The notes beneath the pieces are model-generated. The model saw only the letters and a program-made list of their open reading frames with translations. It was not told the DNA's origin and made no database searches. 64,000 bases of DNA, from the NCBI RefSeq assembly GCF_009712035.1, contig NZ_VILB01000009.1:1-64000 (forward strand), read 5' to 3'. The translations under genes and the position numbers were made by a program. This document shows positions 5,847 to 63,625 of this stretch, piece by piece. This DNA comes from Anabaena sp. UHCC 0187. Lineage in GTDB: Bacteria > Cyanobacteriota > Cyanobacteriia > Cyanobacteriales > Nostocaceae. The stretch's first letter is position 1; each line of letters starts with the position of its first letter.

Positions 5847-5849
5847 TTG

Positions 5850-8276: not shown

Positions 8277-8351
8277 GTTCAGGATGAAGTTTGAATAAAT
8301 AATAAATATTGTGGTAAATCAACTTAATTATCAAAGGGAAATACTAAGTCT

Positions 8352-10177: not shown

Positions 10178-10180
10178 CTC

Positions 10181-10403: not shown

Positions 10404-10419
10404 ATAATCATTAATAACT

Positions 10420-11601: not shown

Positions 11602-11665
11602 TTATTCGATAAATGATAAATATTGTGGTGCTTAAAACTAATTATAAAAGGAGAATGCTAATTCC

Positions 11666-12424: not shown

Positions 12425-12482
12425 TTGCTTTAATTTTTTTTTGTCTTAAAAATATCCTTCATCTTTCCACAAAGAATTTTTT

Positions 12483-13418: not shown

Positions 13419-13421
13419 CTC

Positions 13422-14633: not shown

Positions 14634-14689
14634 TCACCTTGAAAGAGCTAGTCCTAAAATTATTCCCATTCCCTGTTCCCTGCTATAGA

Positions 14690-14732
14690 CTAATGACTAA
14701 CGACTAATCACCAATGACTAATGACTAATAAT
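14690..14732 (+). repeat. Tandem ACTAATG heptamer repeat
   Basis: Units of the form GACTAATGACTAACGACTAA run directly into the pheS start, so the first pheS codons (ATG ACT AAT AAT) appear to derive from or overlap the repeat. Typical short tandem repeat of filamentous cyanobacteria. Confidence 0.7.
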
Positions 14733-15713: not shown

Positions 15714-15718
15714 TGTAG

Positions 15719-15737
15719 GGGTGGGGTTTCCCCGCCC
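15719..15737 (+). terminator. pheS terminator hairpin
   Basis: GGGTGGGG-TTT-CCCCGCCC: an 8-pair stem (one T-G wobble) with a 3-base loop immediately after the pheS stop, followed by TTAATAATTA. Likely intrinsic terminator, possibly working for the convergent Uma2 remnant as well. Confidence 0.75.
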
Positions 15738-15744
15738 TTAATAA

Positions 15745-16236
15745 TTATGAACCAAAACTTAACCAACTAAAAATTTCCTTAACAGTTAATTCTAAATTTA
15801 TATTTTCCAGAATCGGTAATTTATCATCACCGTCATATATTTCTATTTTTTGTCCAGGAAATACAGCTAATACACTTTCTTCTTCTGGATTTAATAACCA
15901 ACCTAATTCAGTTCCATGTCGAGAACAATGTAATAAGTTAGTTAATACTTTTTTCTGTGGTTGTTCAGGAGAAAGAATTTGTATTACCCAGTCAGGATGA
16001 ATTTCAAAGCGGTTAGCAATTCTCCCAGATTCAGTTTTGGGAATTCTTTCCCACCGGAACACCGCAATATCAGGCACAATCGTACTACCACCAAAAGTAC
16101 AGCGTAATTCTGGGAAAGCATAAGCAATCTTTGGCGTTTCCGCTACTTGATTGATATTAGTACAAAATTTAATCTTAAGAATCCCCTTCTCTTTAGAGCG
16201 GGGAGTGTTAAATTTTCTCAAAAATATTTGTTTCAA
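15745..16236 (-). pseudogene. Decayed Uma2-family endonuclease-like gene
   Basis: A 163-residue frame. From about residue 28 it follows the cyanobacterial Uma2/DUF820 pattern (ETPKIAYAFPELRCTFGG, VPDIAVF, HPDWVIQILSP, ELGWLLNPEEESVLAVF). The usual N-terminal 40-60 residues are missing and replaced by unrelated sequence, and the catalytic Glu normally found in PDWVIEILSP is Gln here. Uma2 proteins have a PD-(D/E)XK nuclease fold, so truncation plus loss of this residue suggests an inactive remnant. It could still be expressed, but I see no ribosome site at 16236. Confidence 0.7.
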
Positions 16237-48811: not shown

Positions 48812-48868
48812 TTGAAAATAAATCATAGATTTAAATTGCACAACTGGGACAGGCAAGACTTGTACTGA

Positions 48869-48930
48869 GCAGTTCGACAAGCTCACTGTAACACTTGTCG
48901 ATAGCGCAGCGTGGCGTTAGCCATAGTATG
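48869..48930. repeat. Short dispersed repeats after TPR gene
   Basis: Two adjoining palindromic motifs, GCAGTTCGACAAGCTCACTG and GATAGCGCAGCGTGGCGTTA, followed by GCCATAG, between convergent genes. The form is that of small dispersed repeats in Nostocales. Confidence 0.55.
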
Positions 48931-48976
48931 CCCGTCCCACAATGGTTTTATTTAAATATGGTGTGCATTTAGCTAA

Positions 48977-51658
48977 TTACTCCATTGCTTCATTTACAGG
49001 GAATCTATCAATCAATTGCATCGCCCGTTGAGCATTCCGCCGCAACATATCTGGTAAATTAGGAACATGAGGAATCTGGGATAATAAATCCAGGGTGCGG
49101 CGTAAAATTCGCACCACGTCCCCTTCATCTAAGGTGGTTTTCTCACATAATGCTTTCCACTCTACCCCTAATGCCCACTGTTCTACCAAGGAAATTAGAC
49201 TGATAAAACGAGTTTCCAAACCCACTGGTAAGGCTACCCCATGACGATACTGCACCTTTAATACAGAACGACGAATCGGTTGCAATGTTAGCCAAGCTGC
49301 ATCTGCTTCTGGAGATAGATTAAAGTCAACCTTAGTATCTGGACGAGGGCTTTCAGTCACCAAAGCGGCTATTACTGCTGCTAAGTTATGGGGACCAATA
49401 TTATCTAACTCTCCACTGGACAGAACTAAACCTAACCACAATTCATTCTCACCCCGAATAGCCGCAGCAATTTGTCCTAATTTTGTGGGGACTAAACTAT
49501 CTAAACATTCAAAGGATTGCAAGATTTCAATTAAACAGAGAAACTCTTCCCAATATCTTTGGGATTGTAATGATACTTGCTCTTGTAAATGTTCAAGTTC
49601 TGCTTCTAATTCGACACAACGCGCTCTATTTTTAAATATTTTGGCAATATTCCCCGATTTATAAATGGGATGGGTTTCTAACTGTTCTTGAACCGCAGTT
49701 AAGCGACTGAGTTGCTCCTGTACCTCTGTCGGTAGATGGTTAAATTCTTCAGGATTGGGTATACTCTGAGCGATCGCAATGGTGCTTTCATCACCACGGA
49801 TTGATTGTCCTCGTTTCAAGCTCAATTCTGAAGGTGGTATTAGCTCCGCTGGAACTTCTACCCGTGGCATTTCCGCATACATATCTAATATGTCTGCTGA
49901 AGTTGCTACATACCAACGGTTATTTTGCCCTAGGCAGACAAAGTAAGAGGTTTCACCCACACTCACAGCTTTGTCAACCAACACTACTGTTATCGGTAGG
50001 GGTGACATAGCGTTTCTGTCGTTGAGACTCAACATAGTTCCAGATATGGCAAAATCTAGCATCATTGCCAATTGTGCCTGTCTATCTTCCTGTGCTTGTT
50101 CTTGCAAGGTTTTGAAAATTTGCCGTTCTACTTTCAGCCGTTGACGCAATTTTTCATATTGCATCAATTCATTTTCATCAATAGCTGCCAATTGTGACTG
50201 AATTTGCGATAATTGTCCTTGAACTTGCGCCAGTTCTTCAAAATCTGGTTGCAAATGCAAGTTGGACATATATTGTCCAAAACTCCGTTCTATCAGTTCT
50301 CTGGCTTTTTCTATGGTGTGAGTTTGCAGCAGGTTCAATACCATGCCGTAACTGGGTGTAAACTGACTAACTAAAGGATCAGCCTTAGATGTAGCTAAAT
50401 ATGACGCTTCTTTTGCTCCTTCAAAGGGTGTCTGCAATGTCACTACATAACCTTGTAGATCCATGCCTCGACGACCAGCCCGTCCTGCCATTTGCAGGAA
50501 TTCCGAGGCATTGAGTAAGCGGTGTCCATTATCAGTCCGCTTAGACAAAGTAGAAATTACTGTTGTCCGGGCGGGCATATTAATTCCCGCTGCTAAGGTT
50601 TCCGTAGCAAATACGACTTTAATTAGTCCCTGTTGAAATAGTTCTTCGACTAATCCTTTCCATGCTGGTAAGATGCCGGCATGATGGGCAGCTATGCCTC
50701 GATACAGTGGGGCAACTTGTCCAGCCCTACCAGCATCGGGATTTTTGCGTAAAAATTCATCAATCTGTTGCCGCAGGATTTGGGATTCATCATTATTAAC
50801 TAACCATAAATCACCAACCTCTTCAACGGCTTTATCACAACCCCGACGACTGAAAATAAAGTAAATCGCGGGGAGCATATCCCGTTCTTGGAGTTGGCTC
50901 AGGGTATAAATAATACCGGGCGGTTCTGGTCTACCAGCTTTGCCTTTTTCCCAATATCCTTTTTTCGCCTTTTTGACTAAGCGGGGATTAATTTTGGTAT
51001 TGGTTTCATTTAATAACGGAAATAATCCTTTGGGATTACAAAAGTTAAATTCTAAGGGAACGGGGCGAAAATCCGAGTAAATTAGGTCTGTTGGCCCATG
51101 AACATGATTTAACCAACTGGTAAGTTGATCACTGTTGGCAACGGTAGCGGAAAGGGCTACAAGTTGGACGGCACGGGGACAGTAGATAATTGATTCTTCC
51201 CACACTGTACCCCGTTGGCGATCATTCATGTAGTGGCACTCATCTAGCACCACAGCCTCAACATCTGTCAAGGAGATCCCGATTTGTCCTATGGGTGTAC
51301 CATAGAGCATATTGCGGAAAATTTCTGTGGTCATGACCAAAATTGGTGCATCCCTGTGAATGGAAGCGTCTCCGGTGAGGAGTCCAACTTGATCAAAGCC
51401 AAATTTTTCGCGGAAGTCTCGAAGTTTTTGATTAGATAACGCCTTGAGGGGAGTGGTGTAAAACACCCGTTTCCCGCGAGATAAGGCGCGATAGATAGCA
51501 TATTCCCCGATGAGGGTCTTTCCTGAACCTGTGGGCGCACAGACAACTACTGAACGGTCAGCATTGAGGGAGGCGATCGCTTCTTTCTGGAATTGATCTA
51601 ATTCAAAGGGGAATATTGACTCAATGTCAATTTCATTAGCGAAGGGAGAATAATTCAC
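48977..51658 (-). CDS. Ski2/Mtr4-like RNA helicase
   Basis: An 893-residue SF2 helicase. Core motifs: VVCAPTGSGKTLIGEYAIYR (Walker A), TTPLKALSNQKLRDF, AVVLDECHYMNDRQRG (DECH), VALSATVANSDQL, VFATETLAAGINMPARTTVI and QMAGRAGRRGMD (motif VI). A long insert with coiled-coil and a C-terminal helical DSHCT-like domain (RRTLDLLSQIPHVPNLPDML) place it in the Ski2/Mtr4 group, which in eukaryotes feeds RNA to the exosome. Full-length cyanobacterial form; ATG at 51658. RNA turnover role inferred from the family. Confidence 0.92.
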   Translation of the reverse strand: MNYSPFANEIDIESIFPFELDQFQKEAIASLNADRSVVVCAPTGSGKTLIGEYAIYRALSRGKRVFYTTPLKALSNQKLRDFREKFGFDQVGLLTGDASIHRDAPILVMTTEIFRNMLYGTPIGQIGISLTDVEAVVLDECHYMNDRQRGTVWEESIIYCPRAVQLVALSATVANSDQLTSWLNHVHGPTDLIYSDFRPVPLEFNFCNPKGLFPLLNETNTKINPRLVKKAKKGYWEKGKAGRPEPPGIIYTLSQLQERDMLPAIYFIFSRRGCDKAVEEVGDLWLVNNDESQILRQQIDEFLRKNPDAGRAGQVAPLYRGIAAHHAGILPAWKGLVEELFQQGLIKVVFATETLAAGINMPARTTVISTLSKRTDNGHRLLNASEFLQMAGRAGRRGMDLQGYVVTLQTPFEGAKEASYLATSKADPLVSQFTPSYGMVLNLLQTHTIEKARELIERSFGQYMSNLHLQPDFEELAQVQGQLSQIQSQLAAIDENELMQYEKLRQRLKVERQIFKTLQEQAQEDRQAQLAMMLDFAISGTMLSLNDRNAMSPLPITVVLVDKAVSVGETSYFVCLGQNNRWYVATSADILDMYAEMPRVEVPAELIPPSELSLKRGQSIRGDESTIAIAQSIPNPEEFNHLPTEVQEQLSRLTAVQEQLETHPIYKSGNIAKIFKNRARCVELEAELEHLQEQVSLQSQRYWEEFLCLIEILQSFECLDSLVPTKLGQIAAAIRGENELWLGLVLSSGELDNIGPHNLAAVIAALVTESPRPDTKVDFNLSPEADAAWLTLQPIRRSVLKVQYRHGVALPVGLETRFISLISLVEQWALGVEWKALCEKTTLDEGDVVRILRRTLDLLSQIPHVPNLPDMLRRNAQRAMQLIDRFPVNEAME

Positions 51659-51927
51659 TCAATCATAATTTACAAGCAGACTATCCACTATCATAACGTG
51701 ATTAGTGATTTGCTACGTTGAGAGGAAAAGCCCAAGTTGTGAAGGGATGACTGAGCTTTTTTTAATTACTTTACTATTTCAGCAATTTTGCGGAGAACTT
51801 GACAGGCAGATTCTAATTCGCTTTGGTTGGATAGTGGGGCTTTGCTCACCAGAGGCAATTATCTTTTGTTTATTCTCTTGTCAAGAGCTAAAATGCTTGT
51901 CATGCAAGCTCAATCAAAGATTATTAT
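51659..51927. other. Leader region of restriction-modification operon
   Basis: 270 bases between the divergent helicase and endonuclease genes. Contains a stretch that reads on the minus strand (51766-51849) as a short helical tail, possibly a gene relic, but nothing I can name. Promoter presumably here. Confidence 0.4.
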
Positions 51928-52959
51928 ATGCCGAATTACGCTAGAGACATAACTACTTTACAGTCCTACGCTGCAATGTGGTGGACTGAAAGTTTAAAGG
52001 ATGAAAATGCGACAATAAGTGTTATTCCTAGATTACTTGAGACACAAGAAGATTTCATTTCAATTTTACAATTGAGTAAAAAGAACCCCATGCAAGTCTT
52101 CGAGCTTGTCGAAGCAGCGAAGTTTCCCGCAAACTTATTCCTAAAACACTTGGTTATTATTTCGGACTATGGTGGTGAACCCATTCAAAGACTGGGAAAA
52201 AGTTTCACAGATATTTTTACTAAAAGAGATAAGACGGGTAAACCAGTCATGGATTATGTCTGGAGAGGAACAAATTACCAGTATGTCTTTGAGTCAATGC
52301 CCGTCAAAGGTTTAGGTAATGAAAAGCTTGATATTGATGGAAATGGGTTGCAATCAGATAAACCTTTTGACAGCCTTAAACGTGACATGACGATGATTTT
52401 GCTTCATGCCAGCACTTCTGATGTATCCGAACAAGCTGGTTTAGAGGTTTGTCTTCTGGGTTCTTTGCTTGGTGATGAAGCTGGTTTAGAGCGTCATATA
52501 AAGCAAAGATATATAGTTGTCAGTCGAATAACAGGTGGTGCAAATGCAAATTCTTTAGGACAATTAGCACAACGTTACATTGTCAAGTACCTGAAAGAAA
52601 AATTGGGAAATGAATTCAATATTACCAGTAATGGATCAATTATATTGCAGGGTTATGGTAAAACCACTGGAATGCCCTTTGATGTAGTTGTCACGAAAGG
52701 AGGTAAAAGTGTGGGAATTGAAGTTAGTTTTCAAGTAACAACCAACAGCACAATAGAAAGAAAAGCAGGACAAGCAGCCGAAAGACAAGCTCTGATCAAC
52801 GCTGCTGGTCACAAAATAGCCTATGTTATTGATGGGGCTGGAAATTTCCAACGCTCTGCTGCTATCTCTACAATTTGCAAGCATAGCCATTGTACAGTTG
52901 CCTATTCTGATAGTGAGTTTGACATTTTAGCTGATTTTTTGCGTGAGAGTTTGCCATGA
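51928..52959 (+). CDS. Restriction endonuclease, type II-like
   Basis: A 343-residue protein directly upstream of, and overlapping, a C5-cytosine methyltransferase. The nuclease-like core appears to be Asp252 (MPFDVVVTKG) and Glu265 in VGIEVSFQVTT, a PD-(D/E)XK pattern with a non-Lys third position, followed by a helix rich in charged residues. The N-terminal half includes GKPVMDYVWRGTNYQYVFES and is unfamiliar. I infer restriction activity from position. Start ATG 51928; it ends in an ATGA overlap with the methyltransferase. The recognition site is unknown. Confidence 0.75.
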   Translation: MPNYARDITTLQSYAAMWWTESLKDENATISVIPRLLETQEDFISILQLSKKNPMQVFELVEAAKFPANLFLKHLVIISDYGGEPIQRLGKSFTDIFTKRDKTGKPVMDYVWRGTNYQYVFESMPVKGLGNEKLDIDGNGLQSDKPFDSLKRDMTMILLHASTSDVSEQAGLEVCLLGSLLGDEAGLERHIKQRYIVVSRITGGANANSLGQLAQRYIVKYLKEKLGNEFNITSNGSIILQGYGKTTGMPFDVVVTKGGKSVGIEVSFQVTTNSTIERKAGQAAERQALINAAGHKIAYVIDGAGNFQRSAAISTICKHSHCTVAYSDSEFDILADFLRESLP

Positions 52960-54275
52960 TTCGTTTTATTGATCTTTTTGCAGGTATTGGTGGAATGCGC
53001 CTCGGTTTTCAGCAAGCGTGTGATGTTTTGGGCATAGAATCTCAATGTGTACTTAGCTCTGAAATTGATAAAAAAGCTATTGAAACTTATATACTAAACT
53101 TTGATGATAAACCGACTGGAGACATCCGAGAAATTGATCTAATACCTGAATTTGATTTTATGCTTGCTGGTTTTCCCTGCCAATCTTTCTCGTATGCGGG
53201 TAAACAACAAGGCTTTGGAGATACCAGAGGAACGCTCTTTTTTGAAATTGAAAGACTACTAAAAATTCATAAACCACAAGGTTTTATGCTTGAAAATGTC
53301 CGTGGTTTAACAACACATGATCAAGGTAGAACCTTTAAAACAATTATTCATGCTTTGGAACAAATTGGTTACGGTGTTCATTATCTTTTACTCAACAGTA
53401 GTAAATTTGGTGTACCACAGAATCGTGTTCGTATATACATATTAGGGCTACTTGGTAAAAAGCCAATAATTACACTTATGTCAGATAGAGGTGCTACTGA
53501 CTCTCATACTTTTAAGAAACAGCAACATCAGCTAAGTCTTTTTGATCATACTGATGCAGTTATCAAGGTTAAACATATTCTGGAAAAAAAATGTTCTGAA
53601 AATTATTATCTCTCAAAACAATTTGAACAGCAACTTTTTGATGCTGTAGATGGTCAATTTGAAAAACTTCATGGTATTCGGCTTATTGACTTTCGTGGAG
53701 GCAATTCTATCCATTCTTGGCATTTAGGTATTAAAGGCAAGTGTACGCAGGATGAGCGTGATTTTATGGATGCCTTAATATCCCATAGAAGGCATAAAAA
53801 ATTCGGTGATCACCAAGATGGTAAAAGCTTAACTATAGAACAAATTAAGACATTTTTCGATCATGAAAATATCGAAAATATTATTAATTCACTCATGGAA
53901 AAAAAATATCTTAAAGAAATGAATGAAAGGTATAATCCTGTGAGTGGAAATATGTCTTTTGAAGTTTTTAAATTTCTCGATCCAGAGAGTATTTCCATAA
54001 CCCTGACATCATCAGATGCGAATAAGTTGGGTGTAGTCCAAAATGGGCGACCCAGAAGAATAACGCCTCGTGAATGTGCAAGATTACAAGGCTTTCCAGA
54101 GTCTTATATTCTTCATTCAGATGATAGTGCAACGTATAAACAATTTGGTAATGCTGTAAGTGTGCCTGTAATTCAAGCAATTTTAGAGGACTTCATAGCA
54201 AATAATACTCTCACAAAAGTAACTTTTTGTTCTCCTGCGATAGCTCCGCTCGCGGAAGGCAACACATCCAGGTAA
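52956..54275 (+). CDS. C5-cytosine DNA methyltransferase
   Basis: A 439-residue m5C methyltransferase. Motif I FIDLFAGIGGMRLGF, motif IV GFPCQSFSYAGKQQ with catalytic Cys75, motif VI MLENVRGL, motif VIII PQNRVRIYILG, motif IX RRITPRECARLQGFP and motif X YKQFGNAVSVPVI are all present, with a target-recognition region between about 190 and 340 (e.g. FRGGNSIHSWHLGIKGK). Partner of the upstream endonuclease. The last about 15 residues, after IANNTLTKV, derive from a dispersed palindrome at 54237-54260, so the natural C-terminus may have been replaced. Confidence 0.95.
   Translation: MIRFIDLFAGIGGMRLGFQQACDVLGIESQCVLSSEIDKKAIETYILNFDDKPTGDIREIDLIPEFDFMLAGFPCQSFSYAGKQQGFGDTRGTLFFEIERLLKIHKPQGFMLENVRGLTTHDQGRTFKTIIHALEQIGYGVHYLLLNSSKFGVPQNRVRIYILGLLGKKPIITLMSDRGATDSHTFKKQQHQLSLFDHTDAVIKVKHILEKKCSENYYLSKQFEQQLFDAVDGQFEKLHGIRLIDFRGGNSIHSWHLGIKGKCTQDERDFMDALISHRRHKKFGDHQDGKSLTIEQIKTFFDHENIENIINSLMEKKYLKEMNERYNPVSGNMSFEVFKFLDPESISITLTSSDANKLGVVQNGRPRRITPRECARLQGFPESYILHSDDSATYKQFGNAVSVPVIQAILEDFIANNTLTKVTFCSPAIAPLAEGNTSR
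54237..54260. repeat. Palindromic repeat at island junction
   Basis: TGCGATAGCTCCGCTCGCGG followed by AAGGC. It forms the 3' end of the methyltransferase frame on one side and the exact point where the hicB fragment stops on the other. Similar in form to the 29-base element at 10532, though a different sequence. Confidence 0.65.
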
Positions 54276-54338
54276 ATCTGGAATGTATGCAGAATAGTTA
54301 CTACCTGCCCACTCGTAAACTACTGCATAGTTTTTCAT
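54258..54338 (-). pseudogene. hicB antitoxin fragment
   Basis: The minus strand encodes MKNYAVVYEWAGSNYSAYIP, then DLPGCVA, the N-terminal half of a HicB-family antitoxin, with GGAGG 7 bases before the ATG at 54338. It is cut off abruptly at the palindromic repeat, after which the frame is unrelated. HicB antitoxins pair with HicA; no hicA is present here, so this is a gene remnant. Confidence 0.75.
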
Positions 54339-54402
54339 CGCTTGTCCTCCAGTTGTGCTTGAGAGAAAATGCTCACATTGAGCGCAAAAGCACAAGTTGT
54401 GA

Positions 54403-54531
54403 GGTCAAGGACAAGTTGCTGAAAATCTTGCTAATATCTCTGCTCAAGAAATTAGTATTCCTACCATTGTTCTTTTTGAATTACAAGTTGGCATTGCTAA
54501 GTCCACTTCACCCGCAAAAGCGCAAACTTGA
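54403..54531 (+). pseudogene. vapC (PIN-domain) toxin fragment
   Basis: An open stretch of 42 codons without a start: VAENLANISAQEISIPTIVL, then FELQVGIAKSTSPAKAQT before a TGA at 54529. The ISIPTIVLFELxxGIAKS pattern is the central part of VapC-type PIN toxins. The N-terminus with the first acidic residue and the C-terminus with the last acidic residues are missing. It lies directly before the VWA-system genes. Confidence 0.75.
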
Positions 54532-54584
54532 AGACTCTTTGTGTGATAATTCTGATACACATTATTTAATGGGCTATAGGGTTT

Positions 54585-55733
54585 GTGACTTTGACAAAAA
54601 TTACCCCTGGACAACCACTGACTGATACGCAAAGAAATGGCTTACAGTTAGTATCCCTGTGGGGTGGGGGTAAACGTGATGTTGTTTTAGCTATTGATGT
54701 CACGGAAAGTGTAGGTTTAAATGATCAAGGCCGGATTCGTTTACGTCAGATAGTGGCAGACAGTCTCAAACCTGGTGATTCTGTTTATGTTGTTCCCTTT
54801 GCTCAAAATTTAGTTTTTGATGAGATTATATCTGTTGAAAATCCATTAGGAAAACCTATATATTTTAGAGATAAAAATTCAGAAAATATTAATAAAGTAT
54901 TAGCAAAAATTCCTTTTAATTCTGACCCTAACCGCTATGGAACAGATATTCAAAGAGCAGAGTTAACAGTATATCAAGGTATTGCCCAGATTAATCAAAA
55001 TCGAGTTTCCAACAATCAACCAATTAAGCCGCAATCGGTTGTTTGGATTACTGATGCACCGTTATCTACTAAACCAGGAATTACTTCCGAAGTTTGGATA
55101 GAAACTCCTGCTAATAGTCCTTTCAGAATTGCGACATCACCGGAAAGTCAGGAAAGACAGGGTTGGATTAAGGCTTTATCATTCAAAGAGCGATCGCTCA
55201 TCATTAAAAACCAAGATAATAAAGATTATAAACTATCTGTAGTAGACCTTAATCCTACAGTTCAAGAAATTTGCACACCAGCACCAGGAGGACAAGAAAC
55301 TTGTTTAGTTAATCCTTATTTATTCAAACAGCTATGGCTGCCTAGTTTAATTTTATTATTAATATTTGCATCAATGGTAGGGAGTATATTAAAATATGCT
55401 AAATTACAGAAAAAATGGGATTTACGAGTCAAGCTTGAAAGTAATGGAGAATATGAAGAACAAATATGTAGACTACCCAACAATAAAAAAATCGCCATTG
55501 GTGAATATGATCCTAGCTGTGTAGATTCTATTGACTGTCCAGGTGGAGAAATCAGAGCTTATTTAGAACGGAAAGGAGAAAAACTTTATTTAGTTCCCAA
55601 GGAAGATACAAAAATTCAACTTAACAACAGAAAAGTTACATCACGAACTCTCATATCAAGTGCTAATTTTACTCTAAATTGTCCAGATTCACGCCAAAAA
55701 GACTACGAAATATCTATCAAAATCAAGAAATAG
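54585..55733 (+). CDS. VWA protein with membrane anchor, system gene 1
   Basis: A 382-residue protein. Residues 30-225 are a von Willebrand A-like domain with a MIDAS motif Asp38-x-Thr40-x-Ser42 (LAIDVTES), GTDIQRAELT near 119 and VVWITDAPL near 152. Cys230 and Cys240 could form a disulfide, implying this part is outside the cytoplasm. One membrane helix (250-270, LILLLIFASMVGSILKYA) leads to a cytoplasmic tail that resembles an FHA-like beta domain (KKIAIGEYDPS, IQLNNRKV). Only a GTG at 54585 serves as start and no signal peptide precedes it, so the gene may have lost its 5' end. 18 bases before gene 2. Confidence 0.75.
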   Translation: MTLTKITPGQPLTDTQRNGLQLVSLWGGGKRDVVLAIDVTESVGLNDQGRIRLRQIVADSLKPGDSVYVVPFAQNLVFDEIISVENPLGKPIYFRDKNSENINKVLAKIPFNSDPNRYGTDIQRAELTVYQGIAQINQNRVSNNQPIKPQSVVWITDAPLSTKPGITSEVWIETPANSPFRIATSPESQERQGWIKALSFKERSLIIKNQDNKDYKLSVVDLNPTVQEICTPAPGGQETCLVNPYLFKQLWLPSLILLLIFASMVGSILKYAKLQKKWDLRVKLESNGEYEEQICRLPNNKKIAIGEYDPSCVDSIDCPGGEIRAYLERKGEKLYLVPKEDTKIQLNNRKVTSRTLISSANFTLNCPDSRQKDYEISIKIKK

Positions 55734-55751
55734 TTTATAGGAGAAAAATCC

Positions 55752-58700
55752 ATGACTCAAGCATCTACAAATGAAACCCAGTATAGAGGAATTAATCGGA
55801 CAATTTGTATCGGTTTAGGTGGAACTGGTAGAGATGTATTAATGCGAATTAGAAGATTAATTGTTGACCGTTATGGAGACTTAAATAACTTACCAATTGT
55901 TAGTTTTGTTCATATAGACACAGATAAAGCAGCAACACAAGTCACAGGGATTAGAACAGGAAGTACCTATCATGGTGTTGATCTGAGTTTTAAAGAATCT
56001 GAAAAAGTCAGCGCTACCATGTCATCGAAAGATGTCACCATGTTTGTAGAAGGACTAGAACGGCGTTCAGAATATAATAGTTATGGTCCTTATGATCATA
56101 TTGGAATCTGGTTTCCGCCTCAATTATTGCGGAATATTAAAGCAGTAGAAGAAGGTGCAAAAGGTATCAGACCTGTAGGAAGATTAGCCTTTTTTCACAA
56201 CTATCAAAAAGTAAAAACAGCAATTGAAACAGCAGAAAGACGCACCAGAGGACATGAAGCTTTATTGCTGAAATCCGGCTTTAAAATAGATCCAGGATTA
56301 AGTATTTTTGTTGTTGGTTCTCTTTGTGGTGGTACAGGAAGCGGGATGTTTTTAGATATTGCTTATAGTCTGAGAAATCTTTATGGTGAACAAGGCGCTC
56401 GCATTTTTGGCTATTTAGTAATTAGTCCAGAATTGTATGGTAATACTACTAGAATGATTGCGAATACCTATGCTGCATTAAAAGAACTAAATCATTACAG
56501 TAATCCTGGTACAGAATTTGCAGCTTGTTATGATATTGAAAATTTATCAATTATTCAAGAAAAACGTCCACCTTTTGATTATGCTTATTTGCTATCTCAT
56601 CAAACAGGGGGAGAATATGAAATACTTACCCAAGGTAAGCTATGTAATGTAATTGCTCATAAAATAGGTTTAGAATTTTCTGGTGAATTAGCTCCAGTGA
56701 TTAAAGGAAATCGAGATAATTTTCTACAACACCTAATTCAATCGGACAAACATCCTCGTCCTAATAGCCAGATATACTTAACATTTGGACTATCGGCAAT
56801 TTATTTTCCTCGTGATACTATCATTCAAATAGCCTTAACAAAAGTTAGTTCAGAATTAATCAAATTCTGGTTAAATGGTAAAGGTCAAAGTCCTGATCCT
56901 ATCAACTTACTTGAACAATTTTTAATTCAACATCACTGGCATAATGATTTAGTAAAACGAGATGGATTAACTAATAAATTAGCGGAGTCTGTAGAAGAAT
57001 CTAACAAGACTTTTAGTAATAGTATCAAAACTTGGCAGACTAAATTATCAAGGTTAATCTCCGAATCTAAAAATAAAGATGATCGTGTAAATATTCGTCA
57101 GCAGTTAGCGACAGAATTTTATAAACAATTTCGCACTGTGCAACCAGGAGAAACAGAAAGTATTCGCGGTTATTGGTTAACTAAATTGATACAAGCTGCT
57201 CCTAAAATCATCAAAGAACTTAGCACGAATATTGATGATTATTTAATTAAGTTACTTACACCAATAGAGGCTAACTTTGCTATTAAAAATGGTCGTAATT
57301 GGTTAGAAGCATTGCAATATGAATTGCATAAATATCAACGTGATTTGCAAGAATCAATAGCTGACTTGGGGGGAATGAAACGCATAGAAGACGTAGAAAG
57401 AAAGTGGGATAATACTGACCAAATTATTGAAGAACTGGAAAATAGATTTATCCTGATTGGCAATTTAAAGAATAATCAATTTCAAGACGAATGTAAAAAA
57501 GCTATCCAGGAAGTTTGTAAACTAATTAGGCATAATTTTGATTTAACAGTTATCCAAGAAACACTAAAAATTGTTAGTCAGTTACAAAAGCACGTTCAAG
57601 AAAGAGAAAAAGAAGTTGCTGCTTTTAGCAGTTTAGTAGAAGACTTACAAAGTGCTTATGAAAAAGAGGAACGAGAATTAAAACAATTAAATTTTGATGA
57701 AATGAGTGGAGAGGCAATTTTTGATAGTGAAGATATAGAGCTTTGCTATCAGACAATGTTACCAGAAAATGATCTGCGTCCGCAATTAGTCTTAGCAAGT
57801 TCAGCAATTACAGAAACATCGGGTAAAGGTTCATCTTTGGCATTTTTCCTAAATATAGAAAGAGCTACATACTCCCAGCTAAAACAAGAAATTGATCCCA
57901 CAGTTGTTAAAATATTTGCTTTTCGTGGTAGCAATATTGTCAATTCTGTAATTAAACGCTTCATGCGAAAATATTCATCATCTGCTGGTTCAACTCGTTT
58001 AACACAAATTATGCAGGAAGCTCAACCCTTACTGCGGTTAAATTTGAATGATCCTTATTTCCGAGACGAGGATGATAAAAGTAGTAAATTAGTAGGATAT
58101 AAAGATACAGATGAATCAGATGTGACAGATTTCAAAAAACTCCTCACACAAGATTTAGGGATTTCTACAAGTGTTTTAAAAGCAATACAAGCAGATGATG
58201 AAATCTTAATTGTCAATGAGTATGCAGGGTTTCCATTGAGATTAATTAGTAGTTTGGAAAGAATGAGAAATCCATATTTACGAGAACAAAGTTCTGGAAC
58301 ATCTTTTTTACATAATGATTCTCGTGCTTCTTTTCCTGATATCATTCCCCCAGATGCTAGAAGAATGGAAGAACTGGAGGATATTTTTTATCCTTGTTTA
58401 GCATTAGAATTGTTACAAGAAAATCAGAAAAATAAGGAATTAGAATTTCAACATTATGATTCTTTCCAAGATAGTTACTATACTGCTGCTGTCAGTGAAA
58501 ACTGGATGGAAGCCTTGGAAGATTTGGCAAATAACCGCAATATGGCGGATACTTTGCAGAAGATTTTAGATGATACAATTTCTAAAATGCAAAATAATCC
58601 GAAATTATGGGAAAATGAATATCTGCCGAAACTACGTCAATTTCCAGATAAGTTGAAGCAAATACCCGAAGATAGTCAAAATTTTCCCTATATACAAAAA

Positions 58701-59003
58701 GTATATGTCTCACCAGACAATATTCAACCTACAGTTAAGGAAGGGGTAATAAATCGTTTTTGGAAGAAAATGGAAGGTAAATTGAGAAATACAAATTCTC
58801 TTCCACCCACAGACAATATAGAAAATCAAAAAGCTCTTACTGGTGAAATAGTTCGTAATTTTTCTACAGAGAATAATAATCAAAATCAAGATAAATTACG
58901 TTCGGAATTAGCACGAGTTAAAGAATTGTTGGATGATGACTTGATTACTCAAGAAGATTATGAGATACAAAAGAAAAGAATATTACAGAAATATCTAACC
59001 TAA
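55752..59003 (+). CDS. Tubulin/FtsZ-like protein, system gene 2
   Basis: A 1083-residue protein of the bacterial tubulin-like (Tubulin_2) type. The N-terminal GTPase region has an early glycine loop (ICIGLGGTGRDVLMRI, 18-33) and the tubulin signature-like VGSLCGGTGSGMFLDIAY (188-205), which binds GTP phosphates in FtsZ and tubulin. The middle 600 residues are helical and coiled-coil rich. The last 35 residues (ELARVKELLDDDLITQEDYE onward) match the short C-terminal SHOCT pattern. It follows the VWA gene by 18 bases with AGGAG before the ATG. Predicted to form GTP-dependent filaments; this is inference. Confidence 0.85.
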   Translation: MTQASTNETQYRGINRTICIGLGGTGRDVLMRIRRLIVDRYGDLNNLPIVSFVHIDTDKAATQVTGIRTGSTYHGVDLSFKESEKVSATMSSKDVTMFVEGLERRSEYNSYGPYDHIGIWFPPQLLRNIKAVEEGAKGIRPVGRLAFFHNYQKVKTAIETAERRTRGHEALLLKSGFKIDPGLSIFVVGSLCGGTGSGMFLDIAYSLRNLYGEQGARIFGYLVISPELYGNTTRMIANTYAALKELNHYSNPGTEFAACYDIENLSIIQEKRPPFDYAYLLSHQTGGEYEILTQGKLCNVIAHKIGLEFSGELAPVIKGNRDNFLQHLIQSDKHPRPNSQIYLTFGLSAIYFPRDTIIQIALTKVSSELIKFWLNGKGQSPDPINLLEQFLIQHHWHNDLVKRDGLTNKLAESVEESNKTFSNSIKTWQTKLSRLISESKNKDDRVNIRQQLATEFYKQFRTVQPGETESIRGYWLTKLIQAAPKIIKELSTNIDDYLIKLLTPIEANFAIKNGRNWLEALQYELHKYQRDLQESIADLGGMKRIEDVERKWDNTDQIIEELENRFILIGNLKNNQFQDECKKAIQEVCKLIRHNFDLTVIQETLKIVSQLQKHVQEREKEVAAFSSLVEDLQSAYEKEERELKQLNFDEMSGEAIFDSEDIELCYQTMLPENDLRPQLVLASSAITETSGKGSSLAFFLNIERATYSQLKQEIDPTVVKIFAFRGSNIVNSVIKRFMRKYSSSAGSTRLTQIMQEAQPLLRLNLNDPYFRDEDDKSSKLVGYKDTDESDVTDFKKLLTQDLGISTSVLKAIQADDEILIVNEYAGFPLRLISSLERMRNPYLREQSSGTSFLHNDSRASFPDIIPPDARRMEELEDIFYPCLALELLQENQKNKELEFQHYDSFQDSYYTAAVSENWMEALEDLANNRNMADTLQKILDDTISKMQNNPKLWENEYLPKLRQFPDKLKQIPEDSQNFPYIQKVYVSPDNIQPTVKEGVINRFWKKMEGKLRNTNSLPPTDNIENQKALTGEIVRNFSTENNNQNQDKLRSELARVKELLDDDLITQEDYEIQKKRILQKYLT

Positions 59004-59075
59004 AATAGCCTTTTTATGGGTAGTTAATCACTACCCACTTTTAATAATCTTCCTACACTACCAAAGGTCATTTTT

Positions 59076-60686
59076 ATGCCACCATTACCACCTTACTTAA
59101 TTTTTGTCACTGTTTTTCTGGTTGTCATTCCATCTCTAATTACTATTTTTCTTCGTGTATCTCTTTATCGCTATTTGATAACTTCGACTAATAAAATCCA
59201 AAGATTAATTAACACGGGACTACGCGGAGAACAACCAAAAATTGTTCAAACATTAGAAGATAGATTTCAGCAAGCTAGTAAACAGTTAGAACAGGTAAAT
59301 ACAGGAGCATTAATAGATCAAATTTATAGTCAGGAAAAAATAAATGGTAAGGGATTAACCTGTGAACAAATAGATTATTTATGTCGAATTTTACCAAATT
59401 TATTGTTAGCATTTGGATTATTAGGAACTTTTTTAGGTATCACCATTAATTTATCTACTTTGAGTCAAACAATTAATCAAGTTAATGCAAGTGATGTTAG
59501 TAATTTAGTTACTGAATTAAAGAAACCATTGGAAGGAATGAGCATTGCATTTACTACCAGTTTAACAGGACTATTTTTTAGTGCTGTGTTAACAGTATTC
59601 AATTTTCTTTTTAATAGTGGACTTGCTAAATATCGTCTGATTAGTTCTTTAGAAGATTATCTAGATAATATTTATCTTCCTGAAATTCAGGGTGATAATC
59701 GTCTTGATAAAATAGTCAATAAAATGGTATCCCAACAAGATGTATTTTTAACAAATTTCGGGGAAACAGTGCGGGAAGCTGTAGAAAAATCTATGGGAAA
59801 AGTAGCACAGCAAATTGCTGACGGAAATAAAGAAGCTACAGAATTAGCTAAACAAGTTTATGAAAGATTTACGGAAGCATCTGGTGTTATATCTAGTGCT
59901 GCTAATGAATTTAAAAATTCTATGACAGAGTTAAATTCAACATCTCAGATATTTAAAGAGTCGGCTGAAACTTTCAATGAAAGTCAGTTTCCTTTAAAAT
60001 TATCATTAGCTACAGTAGATTTGAGTAATACACAGCAAAAATTTTCGGAATCAGCAACAAGTTTAGCTCAAACAACGGAATTGATTATAAATGCCTTAAT
60101 TGAAATAGAAAATTGTAGTCAAAGTTTAATTAATTTAGGGGAAGATATTAAAGGTATTCATCAAACCTCAATTCAAGTATTAGATTTACATCAAACCAAC
60201 CAAAATCTTTTAGGTGAAATTATTCCTCAACTTCAAGAAGGAGCTAATAGCTATGAAAAGGCAGTTAATAAACTGGATGCTTTAGATCAAAAAGTACATG
60301 ATAAAGTTAATAATTTAGATGAATTAATAACAGCTATTAATCATTTATTGGAAACCGTAAAAATATATACTTCAGAAGTTAATTTTAGCATTGCAAATAA
60401 CCCACAAATTCAAACTTTTGTGGATAGTATAGAAGGATATGTCCAGCAATTTAGTCTTGAATTTGCTAATATTCAATCAGATTTAATCAAATCCTTAGAA
60501 AATAATAATTCCCAACTAATTTCCGAGTACCAAACTGTGAGTAATACTATAATTCAAGGAATTAATAAACAAACCAGTATCAATACGCAAGGTTTTCAAA
60601 GGGTCATCGGTAATCTTCAGGAATGTAATAAAAATCTTTATGATACAAAAAATTCTATTATCAGACTCAAAAAAGAGGGCGAATAG
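59076..60686 (+). CDS. MotA/ZorA-like membrane protein, system gene 3
   Basis: A 536-residue protein. Membrane helices lie at about 7-27 (FVTVFLVVIPSLITIFL), 106-126 (LPNLLLAFGLLGTFLGITIN) and 153-180 (GMSIAFTTSLTGLFFSAVLT). The GLLGTFLGI and GMxxAFxTSLxGL motifs are those of MotA/TolQ/ExbB proton-channel proteins and ZorA. After residue 200 a coiled coil of about 330 residues follows, as in ZorA tails. Likely forms the channel of a stator with the next gene. 72 bases after the tubulin-like gene. Confidence 0.88.
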   Translation: MPPLPPYLIFVTVFLVVIPSLITIFLRVSLYRYLITSTNKIQRLINTGLRGEQPKIVQTLEDRFQQASKQLEQVNTGALIDQIYSQEKINGKGLTCEQIDYLCRILPNLLLAFGLLGTFLGITINLSTLSQTINQVNASDVSNLVTELKKPLEGMSIAFTTSLTGLFFSAVLTVFNFLFNSGLAKYRLISSLEDYLDNIYLPEIQGDNRLDKIVNKMVSQQDVFLTNFGETVREAVEKSMGKVAQQIADGNKEATELAKQVYERFTEASGVISSAANEFKNSMTELNSTSQIFKESAETFNESQFPLKLSLATVDLSNTQQKFSESATSLAQTTELIINALIEIENCSQSLINLGEDIKGIHQTSIQVLDLHQTNQNLLGEIIPQLQEGANSYEKAVNKLDALDQKVHDKVNNLDELITAINHLLETVKIYTSEVNFSIANNPQIQTFVDSIEGYVQQFSLEFANIQSDLIKSLENNNSQLISEYQTVSNTIIQGINKQTSINTQGFQRVIGNLQECNKNLYDTKNSIIRLKKEGE

Positions 60687-60724
60687 CAAAGTAAATCATA
60701 TTCATTCACAAAGACATTTAACTT

Positions 60725-61468
60725 ATGGCACGTCGTTCACGCTACACTGAATACAATGAAGATTTAAATGTTTGGCAAGCATTTACAGATTTGATGTCTA
60801 ATGCTTTTATGATATTAGTTTTATTTTTATTTCTGACTATTATTATATCGCAAATCACTAAAGATAAAAATAAACCTGCTCAAAATTCAGTCACTTTAGC
60901 TGTGAAAGTCAAACAATTAGAGGATCAAGTAAAATATTTAAAAACCAAAATAAAGCCAGAAAAACAATCAACAGATACACCCCCAATCATAGTTATCAAA
61001 GATCAAGGTGATTATAGATTCGCTTCTGGTAGTGCGGAAATTCCTGCGAAAATGTCAATTTATATATTGAATCAAATAGTGCCGGAAATAGAAAAAAGGA
61101 CTAAACAATATGGTATTAATGTTGTGGAAATCATTGGACATACAGACGGACAAGCTAATGGTAAAGTAATTAGTAATTTAGATGTAAATTTAGAAAATGT
61201 AGCTAGTGGTAATTTAAAAGTAGGAAAACTACAAGCAGGTTCTAATGCTGATTTGGGATTAATGCGGGCTTTGTCAGTTGTCACGGTCTTGGGTGAGATC
61301 CAAAAAAAACAAGGTAAACTATCTGGACTATCATTTCGTGCTTATTCTGCGGCACAATTAATATTACCAAATGGACAATTTGCAGGGATAGCGCGGAAAG
61401 AGGATGTCACCCGAAGACGAATTGAAATACGCTTTACCCGCTTGGGAGAAGTCCAAGAAGTTCGCTAA
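60725..61468 (+). CDS. MotB/ZorB-like OmpA protein, system gene 4
   Basis: A 247-residue protein with a single helix at 20-43 (FTDLMSNAFMILVLFLFLTI) containing Asp22, the position of the proton-carrying Asp in MotB and ZorB. After a coiled linker (LAVKVKQLEDQVKYLKTKIK), residues 95-245 form an OmpA-like peptidoglycan-binding domain (VEIIGHTDGQANGK, ADLGLMRALSVVTVL, TRRRIEIRF). It follows the MotA-like gene by 38 bases. Together they would make an ion-driven stator anchored to the cell wall. Confidence 0.9.
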   Translation: MARRSRYTEYNEDLNVWQAFTDLMSNAFMILVLFLFLTIIISQITKDKNKPAQNSVTLAVKVKQLEDQVKYLKTKIKPEKQSTDTPPIIVIKDQGDYRFASGSAEIPAKMSIYILNQIVPEIEKRTKQYGINVVEIIGHTDGQANGKVISNLDVNLENVASGNLKVGKLQAGSNADLGLMRALSVVTVLGEIQKKQGKLSGLSFRAYSAAQLILPNGQFAGIARKEDVTRRRIEIRFTRLGEVQEVR

Positions 61469-61530
61469 AAAATCACATTGATACTGGTAGATTGGATCAA
61501 CAACCTCACCTCTTACCCTTACTTTGAATT

Positions 61531-62037
61531 ATGCCAAATCTTCACGAACTAATTGACAGTAATTTCCATCATCCACACTACGGACGATTACTACAGCATC
61601 GTGATCATCGTAATCCCAGTATTTTACACTACTCCGTACAACTTAATGATTGGGATTCTCTAGCGTGGGAACCAATTCATGCTGGTAAAGAAAAAGATAC
61701 TGGAAGGCTGGCAATTTGGCCTATTGATTGGAATCATTTTCAACCTGACCAAGCACGAAGTTGGCACAGAGAACAGATACATCAGGCTTTGCATATTTCT
61801 GTGAAAGAGTTTCACGAAAACTGGCACTATGAACTTTATCGCTTCAATTGCGAACATTGGGCGCGAGTTGTATCAACAGGAGACTGTAGATGCTACCAGA
61901 TTGCTGAGTTCAAAAAGTTGCAAGACATTCCTGTTCTCGGTTTTCTGATTGTAGGTTTTGCTGGAGCAGTAACAGGCGCATGGGAACATAATGGATATGC
62001 TCAAAAAGTAGTTGAAAAAGTTTGTAGTGCAGCATAA
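61531..62037 (+). CDS. LRAT-like NCEH protein
   Basis: A 168-residue protein with the FNCEHWARVVSTG segment (Cys107) typical of lecithin retinol acyltransferase-like, NlpC/P60-related papain folds. The usual upstream HHGI-type His motif is not seen; His33 in ILHYS or another residue may replace it. A hydrophobic C-terminal stretch (IPVLGFLIVGFAGAVTGAW, 131-149) could bind a membrane. It lies 62 bases after the OmpA gene in the same direction and may be part of the system or only a passenger. Activity uncertain. Confidence 0.6.
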   Translation: MPNLHELIDSNFHHPHYGRLLQHRDHRNPSILHYSVQLNDWDSLAWEPIHAGKEKDTGRLAIWPIDWNHFQPDQARSWHREQIHQALHISVKEFHENWHYELYRFNCEHWARVVSTGDCRCYQIAEFKKLQDIPVLGFLIVGFAGAVTGAWEHNGYAQKVVEKVCSAA

Positions 62038-62048
62038 TAATCTATCCC

Positions 62049-62102
62049 TTTCAAGGTGAATAAAAACTTGAGTGAAAAAAAGATTTTCGAGTCACCTTGA
62101 AA
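62049..62102. terminator. Inverted repeat between convergent genes
   Basis: TTTCAAGGTGA (62049-62059) and TCACCTTGAAA (62092-62102) form an 11-base inverted repeat with a 32-base loop. It lies between the LRAT-like gene and proC, which converge, and may terminate either. Confidence 0.55.
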
Positions 62103-62110
62103 AGTTATTA

Positions 62111-62932
62111 TCACCCTTTCCCCAATTCTTGAGCGCGTTCTTTTGAGGCTTTCACGGCTTCAATAACAGCGGAACGAAAACCGGCTTTTTCCAAGGCGCT
62201 GACACCGGCAATAGTTGTCCCACCAGGACTGGTAACTCTGTCTTTGAGTTCAGCGGGATGGATTTTTGTTTCTTGTATTAGTGTGGCTGTTCCTAAGACT
62301 GTTTGTACAGCTAGTTGTTTAGCGATCGCTCTTGGTAAACCCACAGCCACACCACCATCGGCTAAAGCTTCGATCATCAATGCCACATAAGCCGGGCCAC
62401 TGCCAGATAATCCTGTCACCGCATCCATGAGGCTTTCCGGTACTTCCACAACTTCCCCCACAGCGGTGAAAATCTGCTGTGCTGTTTGTTGGTGATGGGG
62501 ATGAGTATATGCACCTAAAGAAATTGCCGTTACCCCTGCGCCTACTGTGGCGGGAGTATTAGGCATAGCCCGAATTATGGGAACTTGGGGAAAGGCTGCT
62601 TCCAATTGTTTTAAAGTTACACCCGCCAGTATAGAAATAATTAGGGGTGAATGTTCTGTGGGGAGAATATCTGCTAATTCTTGGGCGATCGCACTAAATA
62701 TTTGGGGTTTAATTGCCAACATCACCGCTGTTTTTGCTTCCCCTAACACTAGGCTGTTATCTGTGGTGACAACTACCTCATATTTCTGCTCTAAATAACT
62801 GCGGCGTTCAGCTTGGGGTTCACTGACGATGATTTCTGAACCTTGATAAATACCACTGATAATAAGGCGGGATAATAGAGCTTCTCCCATTACCCCACCG
62901 CCAATTAAGCCAAATTTTATATTCATTTTCAT
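62111..62932 (-). CDS. proC: Pyrroline-5-carboxylate reductase
   Basis: A 273-residue NADPH-dependent enzyme completing proline synthesis. Rossmann start FGLIGGGVMGEALLSRLI, then AVMLAIKPQIFSAI, IIRAMPNTPATVGAGVTA, the conserved AVTGLSGSGPAYVALMIEAL and the C-terminal RVTSPGGTTIAGVSALEKAG. Full length; ATG at 62932. It is downstream of sepF on the same strand, an arrangement usual in cyanobacteria. Confidence 0.97.
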   Translation of the reverse strand: MKMNIKFGLIGGGVMGEALLSRLIISGIYQGSEIIVSEPQAERRSYLEQKYEVVVTTDNSLVLGEAKTAVMLAIKPQIFSAIAQELADILPTEHSPLIISILAGVTLKQLEAAFPQVPIIRAMPNTPATVGAGVTAISLGAYTHPHHQQTAQQIFTAVGEVVEVPESLMDAVTGLSGSGPAYVALMIEALADGGVAVGLPRAIAKQLAVQTVLGTATLIQETKIHPAELKDRVTSPGGTTIAGVSALEKAGFRSAVIEAVKASKERAQELGKG

Positions 62933-63022
62933 TAGTCACTAGTTAGTGGTCAATTATTAATAGTTAATCATCCTTGTCAATTAATTGGGGATTTAAAACT
63001 ATGAACTAATGACTAATTTAGC

Positions 63023-63625
63023 CTACTGTGCCATGCGAGTGGGTTCATTTCCCCAAGTAGGAGTGGCTGCTGTGGCTGCGGGACGGACGGGACGGGCTGC
63101 TGGTTGGGGTACTTCATGGATTAAACCACCTTGGGTGCTAACTTGCACGCAACTGGGGGTAAACAAGAAGATGCTTTCACCAATTCGTTCTTGATGTCCG
63201 TCTAAGGCATAAGTACCACCAGCAACAAAGTCAACTGCTCGTTGAGCTTGGTCGGGGTCCATGATGGTCAAGTTCAATACTACTGATTTGCGTTCGCGCA
63301 GTGCTTGAATCGCCTGGGGCATTTCTTCAAATGTGCGAGGCTCAAGGACTAGAACTTCAGAGATTCCATTAATTGCGCCTGGCATACCAATAACGTTACT
63401 CATAGGTTTAGATACTGTTGCAGCTACTTCTTCTGTAGTTGTGGGTGAATTTTCCCGCCAACGCCGATTGGGAGGAGTAGTTTCCTGTGGGGCTGGTTGG
63501 GGATTTTCCTGTTGATAGATATTCTGATAATTATTGGCTGTATCAGCTTCTTCTTCGTAGTATTCGTATTCTACCTGCTCATTCAACCCTACAAAATCCC
63601 TGAGTTTAGAAAATATATTGCTCAT
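63023..63625 (-). CDS. sepF: Cell division protein SepF
   Basis: A 200-residue SepF (Cdv2 in cyanobacteria), which anchors and bundles FtsZ at mid-cell. The N-terminal membrane-targeting helix [15 protein letters not shown] is followed by an acidic linker and the SepF core: [40 protein letters not shown] and [20 protein letters not shown]. The C-terminal 35 residues are Pro/Ala rich. proC lies about 90 bases downstream. ATG at 63625. Confidence 0.96.

Follow-up and report, generated by a model that had tools for sequence, protein, structure and literature searches.

A conserved cyanobacterial gene cassette encoding a VWA protein, a tubulin-like GTPase and a candidate ZorAB-type ion-driven stator

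We analysed a 64,000-nucleotide stretch of DNA from Anabaena sp. UHCC 0187 (contig NZ_VILB01000009.1, positions 1 to 64,000; hereafter the window), in which a four-gene cassette spans positions 54585-61468. All on the + strand, it encodes a VWA protein (54585-55733, 382 residues, GTG start), a tubulin-like GTPase of the Tubulin_2/FtsZl1 kind (55752-59003, 1083 residues; PF13809, E 2.3e-109), a ZorA/MotA-like channel protein with a long coiled-coil tail (59076-60686, 536 residues) and a ZorB/MotB-like OmpA protein (60725-61468, 247 residues); the last two are called ZorA and ZorB here. An LRAT-like gene (61531-62037, + strand, 168 residues) follows, and the gaps along the five reading frames are 18, 72, 38 and 62 bases. 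A preliminary description of this DNA had presented the locus as five same-strand genes with gaps of 18-72 bases, which the reading-frame coordinates bear out; the motifs that it quoted, GSLCGGTGSGMF, GLLGTFLGI, Asp22 (in FTDLMSNAFMI) and IGHTDGQ, are all present in the translations.

The four-gene cassette recurs far beyond chance. Among 195 genomes of the order, 89 gave a tubulin match at E<=1e-10, and 60 genomes were assigned by hand to the clade of the window's tubulin-like gene (long matches of about 38-96 percent identity, or gene fragments), the remaining matches, at 26-38 percent identity, being a paralogous set. Loci were fetched from 48 of the other 59 clade genomes; all four genes are present in 42 of the 48 (counting a 49-bit VWA piece in L059), and in 41 of those 42, with L047 as the exception, they stand on one strand in the order VWA, tubulin-like, ZorA, ZorB. 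The preliminary description had left room for the tubulin-like gene being rarely found beside the MotA/MotB-like pair, and these counts show that it is usually found there. Six loci are incomplete; L033, L042 and L067 are truncated by contig ends, and L053 holds the VWA and tubulin-like genes. A set of 80 loci from GTDB, overlapping with the 48, gave all four genes in 70, in order in 68 of these. A survey of 386 genomes of the phylum turned up a single case beyond the order of a tubulin match as strong as the window's (>300 bits), G252 at 733 bits, and its locus again has all four genes, in order. No fifth neighbour is conserved, any further gene cluster recurring in at most 8 of the 48; the LRAT-like gene, which the preliminary description had counted into the system, has a homologue in 0/48 loci (E<=1e-4) and was rejected as a member. 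At the same sensitivity, none of the other three genes was found at twelve loci of other Tubulin_2 genes (L081-L092).

Counted over whole genomes, the VWA protein occurs in 61 of the 195, of which 59 share it with the tubulin-like protein and 2 lack the latter, and ZorB, of cassette and stand-alone kinds together, is matched in 99/195, a set that takes in every genome with the VWA protein and all but one of the 60 with the tubulin. Fisher tests of co-occurrence gave p 2e-46 and 7e-22, values that ignore shared ancestry. The tubulin, VWA and ZorB genes are partly unlinked in G012 and G133, and all three are present in both. From these counts the dependence looks one-sided: the tubulin-like and VWA proteins go with the stator, and the stator also occurs without them. 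Neighbourhoods and, as set out below, residue conservation both support the earlier suggestion that the VWA protein, the tubulin-like protein and the stator pair form one system, and we consider it very likely that the four genes are a single functional unit.

Related genes also stand outside the cassette. Stand-alone ZorA-ZorB-like pairs are found in cyanobacteria at loci without this tubulin-like gene (L208, L209, L211-L220), some of them adjoining what we take, from sequence, to be hisS-like genes, and a 60-row tree of ZorB cannot accommodate the stand-alone label with fewer than five changes. The window's own genome has a divergent second Tubulin_2 gene (G000 C5 285033-285998, L092), and paralogous Tubulin_2 genes occur in many cyanobacteria, 8 of the 12 loci having a different preceding gene that is VWA-like by eye.

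We read the ZorA-ZorB pair as a stator because of what is known of the ZorAB family. The PADLOC families ZorA and ZorB matched the two proteins at E 1.5e-15 and E 3.6e-9 respectively, a sign of kinship and not of family membership, while the best NCBIfam model for ZorA, ZorA_2, gave 45.2 bits against a cut-off of 100, the cassette ZorB had no NCBIfam ZorB match, and the Pfam families OmpA (16.2 bits) and MotA_ExbB (14.2 bits) both scored under cut-off. A ZorA profile matches PDB chains of ZorA and of the MotA/TolQ/ExbB domain, and ZorB gives weak profile matches to MotB-like, PomB and ZorB chains. ZorB has a single membrane helix bearing Asp22 (codon at 60788-60790, + strand), then an OmpA-type domain with the IGHTDGQ motif; the Asp and the GHTD residues are each kept in 44/44 aligned ZorB sequences, and to judge from these sequences ZorB combines the membrane Asp with a putative peptidoglycan-binding domain, as a Zorya-type B subunit does. 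In ZorA, T118, which falls on the GTF motif when aligned with ZorA-type chains, is found in 45/45 rows with a letter there and S162 in 46/46. The A subunit of 5:2 ion-driven stators has a Thr/Ser ring facing the Asp, and these two residues are its counterpart here. The parts of the Zorya study available to us (PMC11890865) describe ZorAB as a 5:2 complex in which ZorB binds peptidoglycan and needs its Asp, and in which the ZorA tail is needed as well. We think it quite probable that ZorA and ZorB of the cassette form a working ion channel. The length of ZorA inside cassettes runs from 434 residues (L041, 6753-8057) to 1076 (L172, 7592-10822), a contig-cut copy of 395 residues (L042) being left out of this range.

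The tubulin-like protein has its GTPase domain at 55803-56861 (+ strand), with the T1 loop GLGGTG at residues 21-26 and the T4 loop GSLCGGTGSG at residues 189-198. Among 47 aligned tubulin-like sequences T1 GLGGTG and T4 SLCGGTGSG are almost invariant, so that neither the GTP loops nor Asp22 of ZorB show the lack of conservation that the preliminary description had held to be fatal to a single-system reading. The predicted model (mean predicted local distance difference test score 83.9) aligns structurally with the tubulin/CetZ fold over residues 14 to 850, at 16 percent identity, and both the GTPase part and the C-terminal domain of that fold were recognised on it. A helical, coiled-coil insert of about 270 residues (56898-57701, + strand; residues about 383-650, the edges being approximate and taken from secondary structure) precedes the predicted rest of the tubulin/CetZ C-terminal domain (57702-58301, + strand; residues about 651-850). 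That the protein has an almost entire tubulin/CetZ fold, interrupted by this insert, is a prediction newly made here. The helical insert and a helical end, with some strands between them, give the coiled coil and alpha-helical C-terminal region expected of the family. A SHOCT match at the C-terminal tail is weak (22.6 bits, cut-off 27); SHOCT was found by Pfam at E<=0.01 in 16/39 aligned sequences, by a wider motif pattern in 27/47 and by a narrow one in 3/47.

One further feature of this protein may bear on GTP hydrolysis. An acidic segment, [DE]308-F309-x-x-E312, is conserved at [DE]308 in 43/47 sequences, at F309 in 47/47 and at E312 in 45/47, and lies between the predicted helices 294-307 and 314-325, before the strand 342-351. 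Such a segment occupies the place of T7 in the tubulin/FtsZ topology, and we suggest that it may be the T7 of this family.

In the VWA protein an N-terminal VWA domain is marked by residues of the metal-ion-dependent adhesion site type (D38, T40, S42, T120 and D157, with DxTxS in place of DxSxS), of which D38, T40 and S42 are kept in 44/44 rows with letters, T120 in 43/44 and D157 in 42/44 (2 Glu). Neither a Pfam search of this protein, which gave no match, nor a PDB sequence-profile search with its alignment, which gave no relatives, recovered the domain; we assign it because of this residue set and because the model has weak structural matches to VWA-containing proteins (E 4e-4 to 7e-3). Of the profiles against which the preliminary description wished the proteins to be checked, Tubulin_2 was found outright, SHOCT, OmpA and MotA_ExbB only below cut-off, and Pfam VWA not at all. 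A predicted membrane helix (55320-55406, + strand; residues 246-274 by hydropathy, helix 242-275 in the model) is followed by an FHA-type fold (55410-55730, + strand; residues 276-382), which was recognised at the C-terminus of the model. Canonical FHA domains have IGR with a phosphothreonine-binding Arg; here the phosphate-site Arg is apparently absent, most alignment rows having IG[E/D/S] at this position, which was placed by eye. The predicted C-terminal arrangement of the VWA protein, a membrane helix followed by an FHA-type fold, is newly described here. Just before the membrane helix two Cys residues, 230 and 240 (55272-55304 in the window), are invariant in 45/45 sequences.

We propose that the four genes may encode one inner-membrane machine, and put the probability of this explanation as a whole at roughly 0.6. 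ZorA and ZorB would assemble into an ion-driven stator resembling MotAB and ZorAB, probably with 5:2 stoichiometry, anchored to peptidoglycan by the OmpA domain of ZorB. Ions passing Asp22 and the ZorA Thr/Ser ring would set the pentamer of ZorA in motion together with its long tail in the cytoplasm, and the tail could act on, or be read by, a membrane-apposed tubulin-type GTPase with a large coiled-coil insert. The VWA-membrane helix-FHA protein might serve as an adaptor, keeping the tubulin at the membrane or switching it there. A direct coupling of the stator to the tubulin, through contact with the ZorA tail, seems to us rather likely. The predicted tubulin fold makes filament formation expectable and therefore testable, and the stator might transmit force to a tubulin-like filament, as the preliminary description had proposed; its interpretation is partly supported by our results. 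The likeliest job of such a machine would be envelope- or surface-linked work (surface motility, pilus function or envelope remodelling), a role that we put forward tentatively, at somewhat less than even odds, with phage sensing as its main rival. We favour it over phage defence because inheritance looks mainly vertical and the flanks of the cassette are not visibly rich in defence genes.

The inheritance evidence comes from a comparison of distances between cassette proteins with those of gyrB, which gave Spearman coefficients of 0.60-0.70 with 0/999 permutations as high (21-22 genomes); the cassette proteins also track each other beyond gyrB (partial coefficients 0.36-0.76). The comparison used 22 of 29 genomes, seven with less than 85 percent coverage being dropped, and a thirtieth, G027, had no gyrB match; an earlier run with all 29, disturbed by long gyrB inserts, gave 0.34-0.49 with 0 to 6 of 999 permutations as high. 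Such long inserts, in frame and presumably inteins, are found in many gyrB genes of these cyanobacteria (L236, L241, L249-L260) and upset comparisons based on this gene. For the flanks, PADLOC families matched at E<=1e-15 numbered 39 among 141 proteins near the cassette (at most two genes on each side, each under 900 residues, from 42/48 loci, one VWA fragment removed) versus 61 among 130 control proteins (taken at 14 loci where a stator pair stands alone, the stator genes removed), a crude comparison in that the best 25 families are listed for each set, families rather than proteins are counted and several models can match one kinase. There is thus no visible excess of PADLOC families over control flanks, and within the limits of this test placement in a defence island is not supported; no Zor family was among the best 25 of the 39 families. 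The preliminary description had offered defence or envelope remodelling as alternative roles, and it is the defence part that these two results weaken.

A defence role deserves weighing nonetheless. The cassette could be a Zorya-like anti-phage system, in which ZorAB would sense envelope damage or DNA injection and its tail would trigger the tubulin-like GTPase, through a filament or a division block, in place of the ZorC, ZorD and ZorE nucleases. The ZorAB-type pair with its long tail and OmpA-type domain fits this idea, the more so as Zorya defence requires both the tail and the peptidoglycan-binding domain (PMC11890865, in the portion available), and so do the patchy spread of the cassette (60/195 genomes), the broken or split state of several tubulin genes, a BanI restriction-modification pair adjoining the window copy, and the occurrence of other Tubulin_2 genes near brxL on plasmids of Thermus and of Meiothermus, the latter also having an HmaC-like gene close by. 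Against this, no conserved effector nuclease lies beside the cassette in the 48 loci, the BanI pair is absent from these same loci, and both the flank counts and the mostly vertical inheritance described above point elsewhere. Among the eleven window proteins at 46967-63625 none of the PADLOC families listed is ZorC, ZorD or ZorE (for the methylase the best 25 of 65 families, for the helicase the best 25 of 43), which bears out the earlier statement that no Zorya effector is present; with ZorA also below the NCBIfam cut-off, we rejected membership of Zorya proper and regard an anti-phage role as rather unlikely.

Two other readings concern the coupling itself. The operon might hold two unrelated, co-expressed modules, a Tol-/Exb-like stator and a VWA/tubulin-like module for membrane remodelling, and the existence of ZorA-ZorB pairs at loci without this tubulin agrees with this, as does the ZorB match without it in 40/195 genomes (some of them fragments), because of which we take the stator not to depend on the tubulin. 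The tubulin, however, occurs without ZorB in only 1/60 genomes, and the tubulin-ZorA-ZorB order is the same in two phyla, so we think uncoupled modules improbable. Alternatively, the tubulin-like protein might form no filament and instead gate the stator as a monomeric GTPase switch, scaffolded by the VWA-FHA protein. A very large insert in the tubulin fold could indeed block longitudinal contacts, and the part of the 2010 study of FtsZl1 that we could consult mentions, as the less likely case, that the family may form no filaments (PMC2875224); the T7-like acidic motif, if rightly equated with T7, is what one would expect where GTP is hydrolysed at a subunit interface, and we find a monomeric switch doubtful.

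Several observations weigh against the proposed stator-tubulin machine more generally. Two of the incomplete loci, L058 and L073, carry the tubulin-like gene alone, also by six-frame profile search, and G026, the genome of L058, has the tubulin without a VWA match and without a ZorB match; the ZorB matches without tubulin just mentioned weigh here too, and the genome-wide stator counts are counts of ZorB. The topology of the VWA protein is puzzling: no signal peptide was seen by eye at the start used here, yet the charge pattern, also by eye, favours a C-terminus inside. Our knowledge of the insert and the C-terminal domain of the tubulin-like protein comes from an AlphaFold model; a profile comparison with FtsZ (five sequences) matches the T3-T4 region only, at probability 9, and nothing in the C-terminal part, and a PDB sequence-profile search with the tubulin alignment gave chance-like helical matches and no relatives. 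The patchy distribution, and the several tubulin copies that are split or contain stops (some of them maybe assembly errors), speak against vertical, housekeeping-like descent. We found no experiment on this cassette in the literature, and the Synechocystis phenotype discussed below comes from another subfamily, whose match is one of gene order and not of sequence.

The order of tubulin and stator genes is shared by a second phylum. Deinococcus plasmids with a full-length relative of a D. deserti protein have, in 4/4 cases, a MotA/ZorA-like and then an OmpA/ZorB-like gene after the tubulin-like one, the tubulin gene of D. radiophilus being broken by an IS630 element. Profiles of the Deinococcus and cassette proteins match for ZorA (E 6.8e-9, probability 95.8, 71 columns) and for ZorB (E 5.3e-4, probability 30.5; both are single-comparison E values), the Deinococcus Asp motif being FSDL.LN, and the Deinococcus pair matches PADLOC ZorA at E 1.6e-7 and ZorB at E 8.7e-6. 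A gene two places 5' appears by eye to encode a signal peptide, a domain, a membrane helix and a small domain, and profile comparison detected no homology between this N-terminal partner and the VWA protein. The NCBI annotation of one Deinococcus plasmid names tubulin-like, MotA/TolQ/ExbB and OmpA neighbours without comment. The Thermus and Meiothermus plasmids have rows of vWA, tubulin-like, hypothetical and brxL genes (L204, Meiothermus, 1214-14410; L205, Thermus, 6404-14363), the HmaC-like gene being upstream of the Meiothermus row; no stator was recognised in them, and they are possibly a defence system with a tubulin-like member. Two Azospirillum records have no clear stator, one having OmpA-family genes nearby, and no copy of the window-type tubulin over 80 percent of the query was found on phages or plasmids.

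Known prokaryotic relatives of tubulin divide cells, segregate plasmids and shape cells, and we know of none that works with an ion-driven stator. It has been predicted since 2010 that Tubulin_2 proteins with VWA and OmpA partners form a membrane-remodelling system (Makarova and Koonin, PMC2875224), as the preliminary description stated, while a search of the main text for MotA, TolQ, proton channel or stator found none of these terms. The FtsZl1 system, so far as the accessible parts of that paper describe it, shares with the cassette a Tubulin_2 GTPase with a coiled coil and an alpha-helical C-terminus and VWA and OmpA-family partners; its cyanobacterial members form a clade, and our cassette has both the Tubulin_2 domain with a GGTGSG-type loop and the VWA gene in the operon. 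It differs in the ZorA-type channel and may differ in its neighbours: kinases and P-loop GTPases are frequent, though not universal, beside FtsZl1, whereas here no fifth cluster exceeds 8/48 loci, the neighbours not having been scanned with Pfam. T6-H7 and the C-terminal domain were described there as not identifiable, and a 2023 paper, as far as available, reports the Pfam domains FtsZ_C and Tubulin_C to be missing from Tubulin_2 proteins (PMC9871819), whereas our predicted model aligns with most of the CetZ fold, from which it differs by its helical insert, its 1083 residues and its low identity. In the 2010 main text we found nothing that corresponds to an OmpA protein serving as the B subunit of a stator and separated from the tubulin by the A subunit.

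From Zorya types I and II (PMC11890865, in part) the cassette shares a long-tailed channel subunit followed by a single-helix, Asp-bearing OmpA-type subunit and the Thr/Ser ring, and differs in its sub-cut-off ZorA, its want of an NCBIfam ZorB match and of any ZorC, ZorD or ZorE found, and its tubulin-like GTPase and VWA partners. With MotAB, TolQR and ExbBD it has in common the polar residues and membrane Asp and the weak PDB profile matches to MotB and PomB; the long coiled-coil tail and the tubulin and VWA partners set it apart, as does the MotA_ExbB score of 14.2 bits. Tubulin goes unmentioned in the text available to us of two reviews, on stators (PMC10341847) and on gliding (PMC13104615), of a study of stator evolution (PMC12505986) and of a BREX survey (PMC12839542), and, judged by titles and abstract openings, no description of a stator-tubulin cassette was recognised among the open-access papers listed. 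The cassette could represent a new class of motor, a rotary ion stator with a tubulin-family GTPase as its cytoplasmic partner, coupling ion-motive force to GTP-dependent polymer dynamics in Cyanobacteria and Deinococcota, in which the coiled-coil arm may reach the ZorA tail; we give this a little under an even chance. If true, a bacterial cytoskeletal protein would be directly wired to an ion-powered motor. Zorya shows, in the sections seen, that long-tailed stators matter for signals into the cytoplasm (PMC11890865), and here the conserved recipient of the signal would be a cytoskeletal GTPase. The cassette also renders the 2010 FtsZl1 prediction directly testable, with a candidate engine, a partner map and candidate point mutants (ZorB D22N, tubulin E312 and VWA D38).

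A second, smaller tubulin-like family occurs in 39/195 genomes and is accompanied by a VWA-type lipoprotein in the operons read, which have about seven genes (L276 in G155, 2186-16099; L214 in G007, 272-8677; L275 in G036, 5893-16133). A ZorA-ZorB pair of the window kind stands at the end of the row in G155, divergently beside it in G007 and on a different contig from it in G059, so that, of the loci read, those of G155 and G007 alone have ZorAB next to this operon. By gene order, the seven-gene row of L275 may correspond to the Synechocystis unit sll0443-sll0449 (PMC2633013, in part), of which sll0445 is called a Tubulin_2 gene and sll0445-0447 mutants are, in the parts of that study accessible to us, impaired in phototaxis and linked to pilus proteins by association (PMC9880817). 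If the two operons are the same, this system would share the VWA and tubulin-like logic of the cassette, from which it differs by a small tubulin-like protein (about 500 residues) of a separate subfamily, a lipoprotein-type VWA protein and extra genes.

The genes around the window's cassette are of other kinds. Upstream, a DEAD/DSHCT helicase (48977-51658, - strand) has a homologue in 1/48 loci (L053) and was rejected as a ZorD, its Pfam domains being DEAD and DSHCT and no Zor family being among its best 25 of 43 PADLOC families. Directly 5' of the cassette are the BanI-type type II restriction enzyme (PF24447, E 2.7e-147) and a C5 cytosine methylase (51928-54275). The BanI pair was rejected as part of the system, as were proC and sepF, all being without homologues in the 48 loci (E<=1e-4). 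The LRAT-like protein scores 16.7 bits with Pfam LRAT, under the cut-off of 24.3. Just downstream, on the - strand at 62111-63625, lie proC (P5CR_dimer) and sepF (SepF, E 8.4e-27), the latter encoding an anchor of FtsZ.

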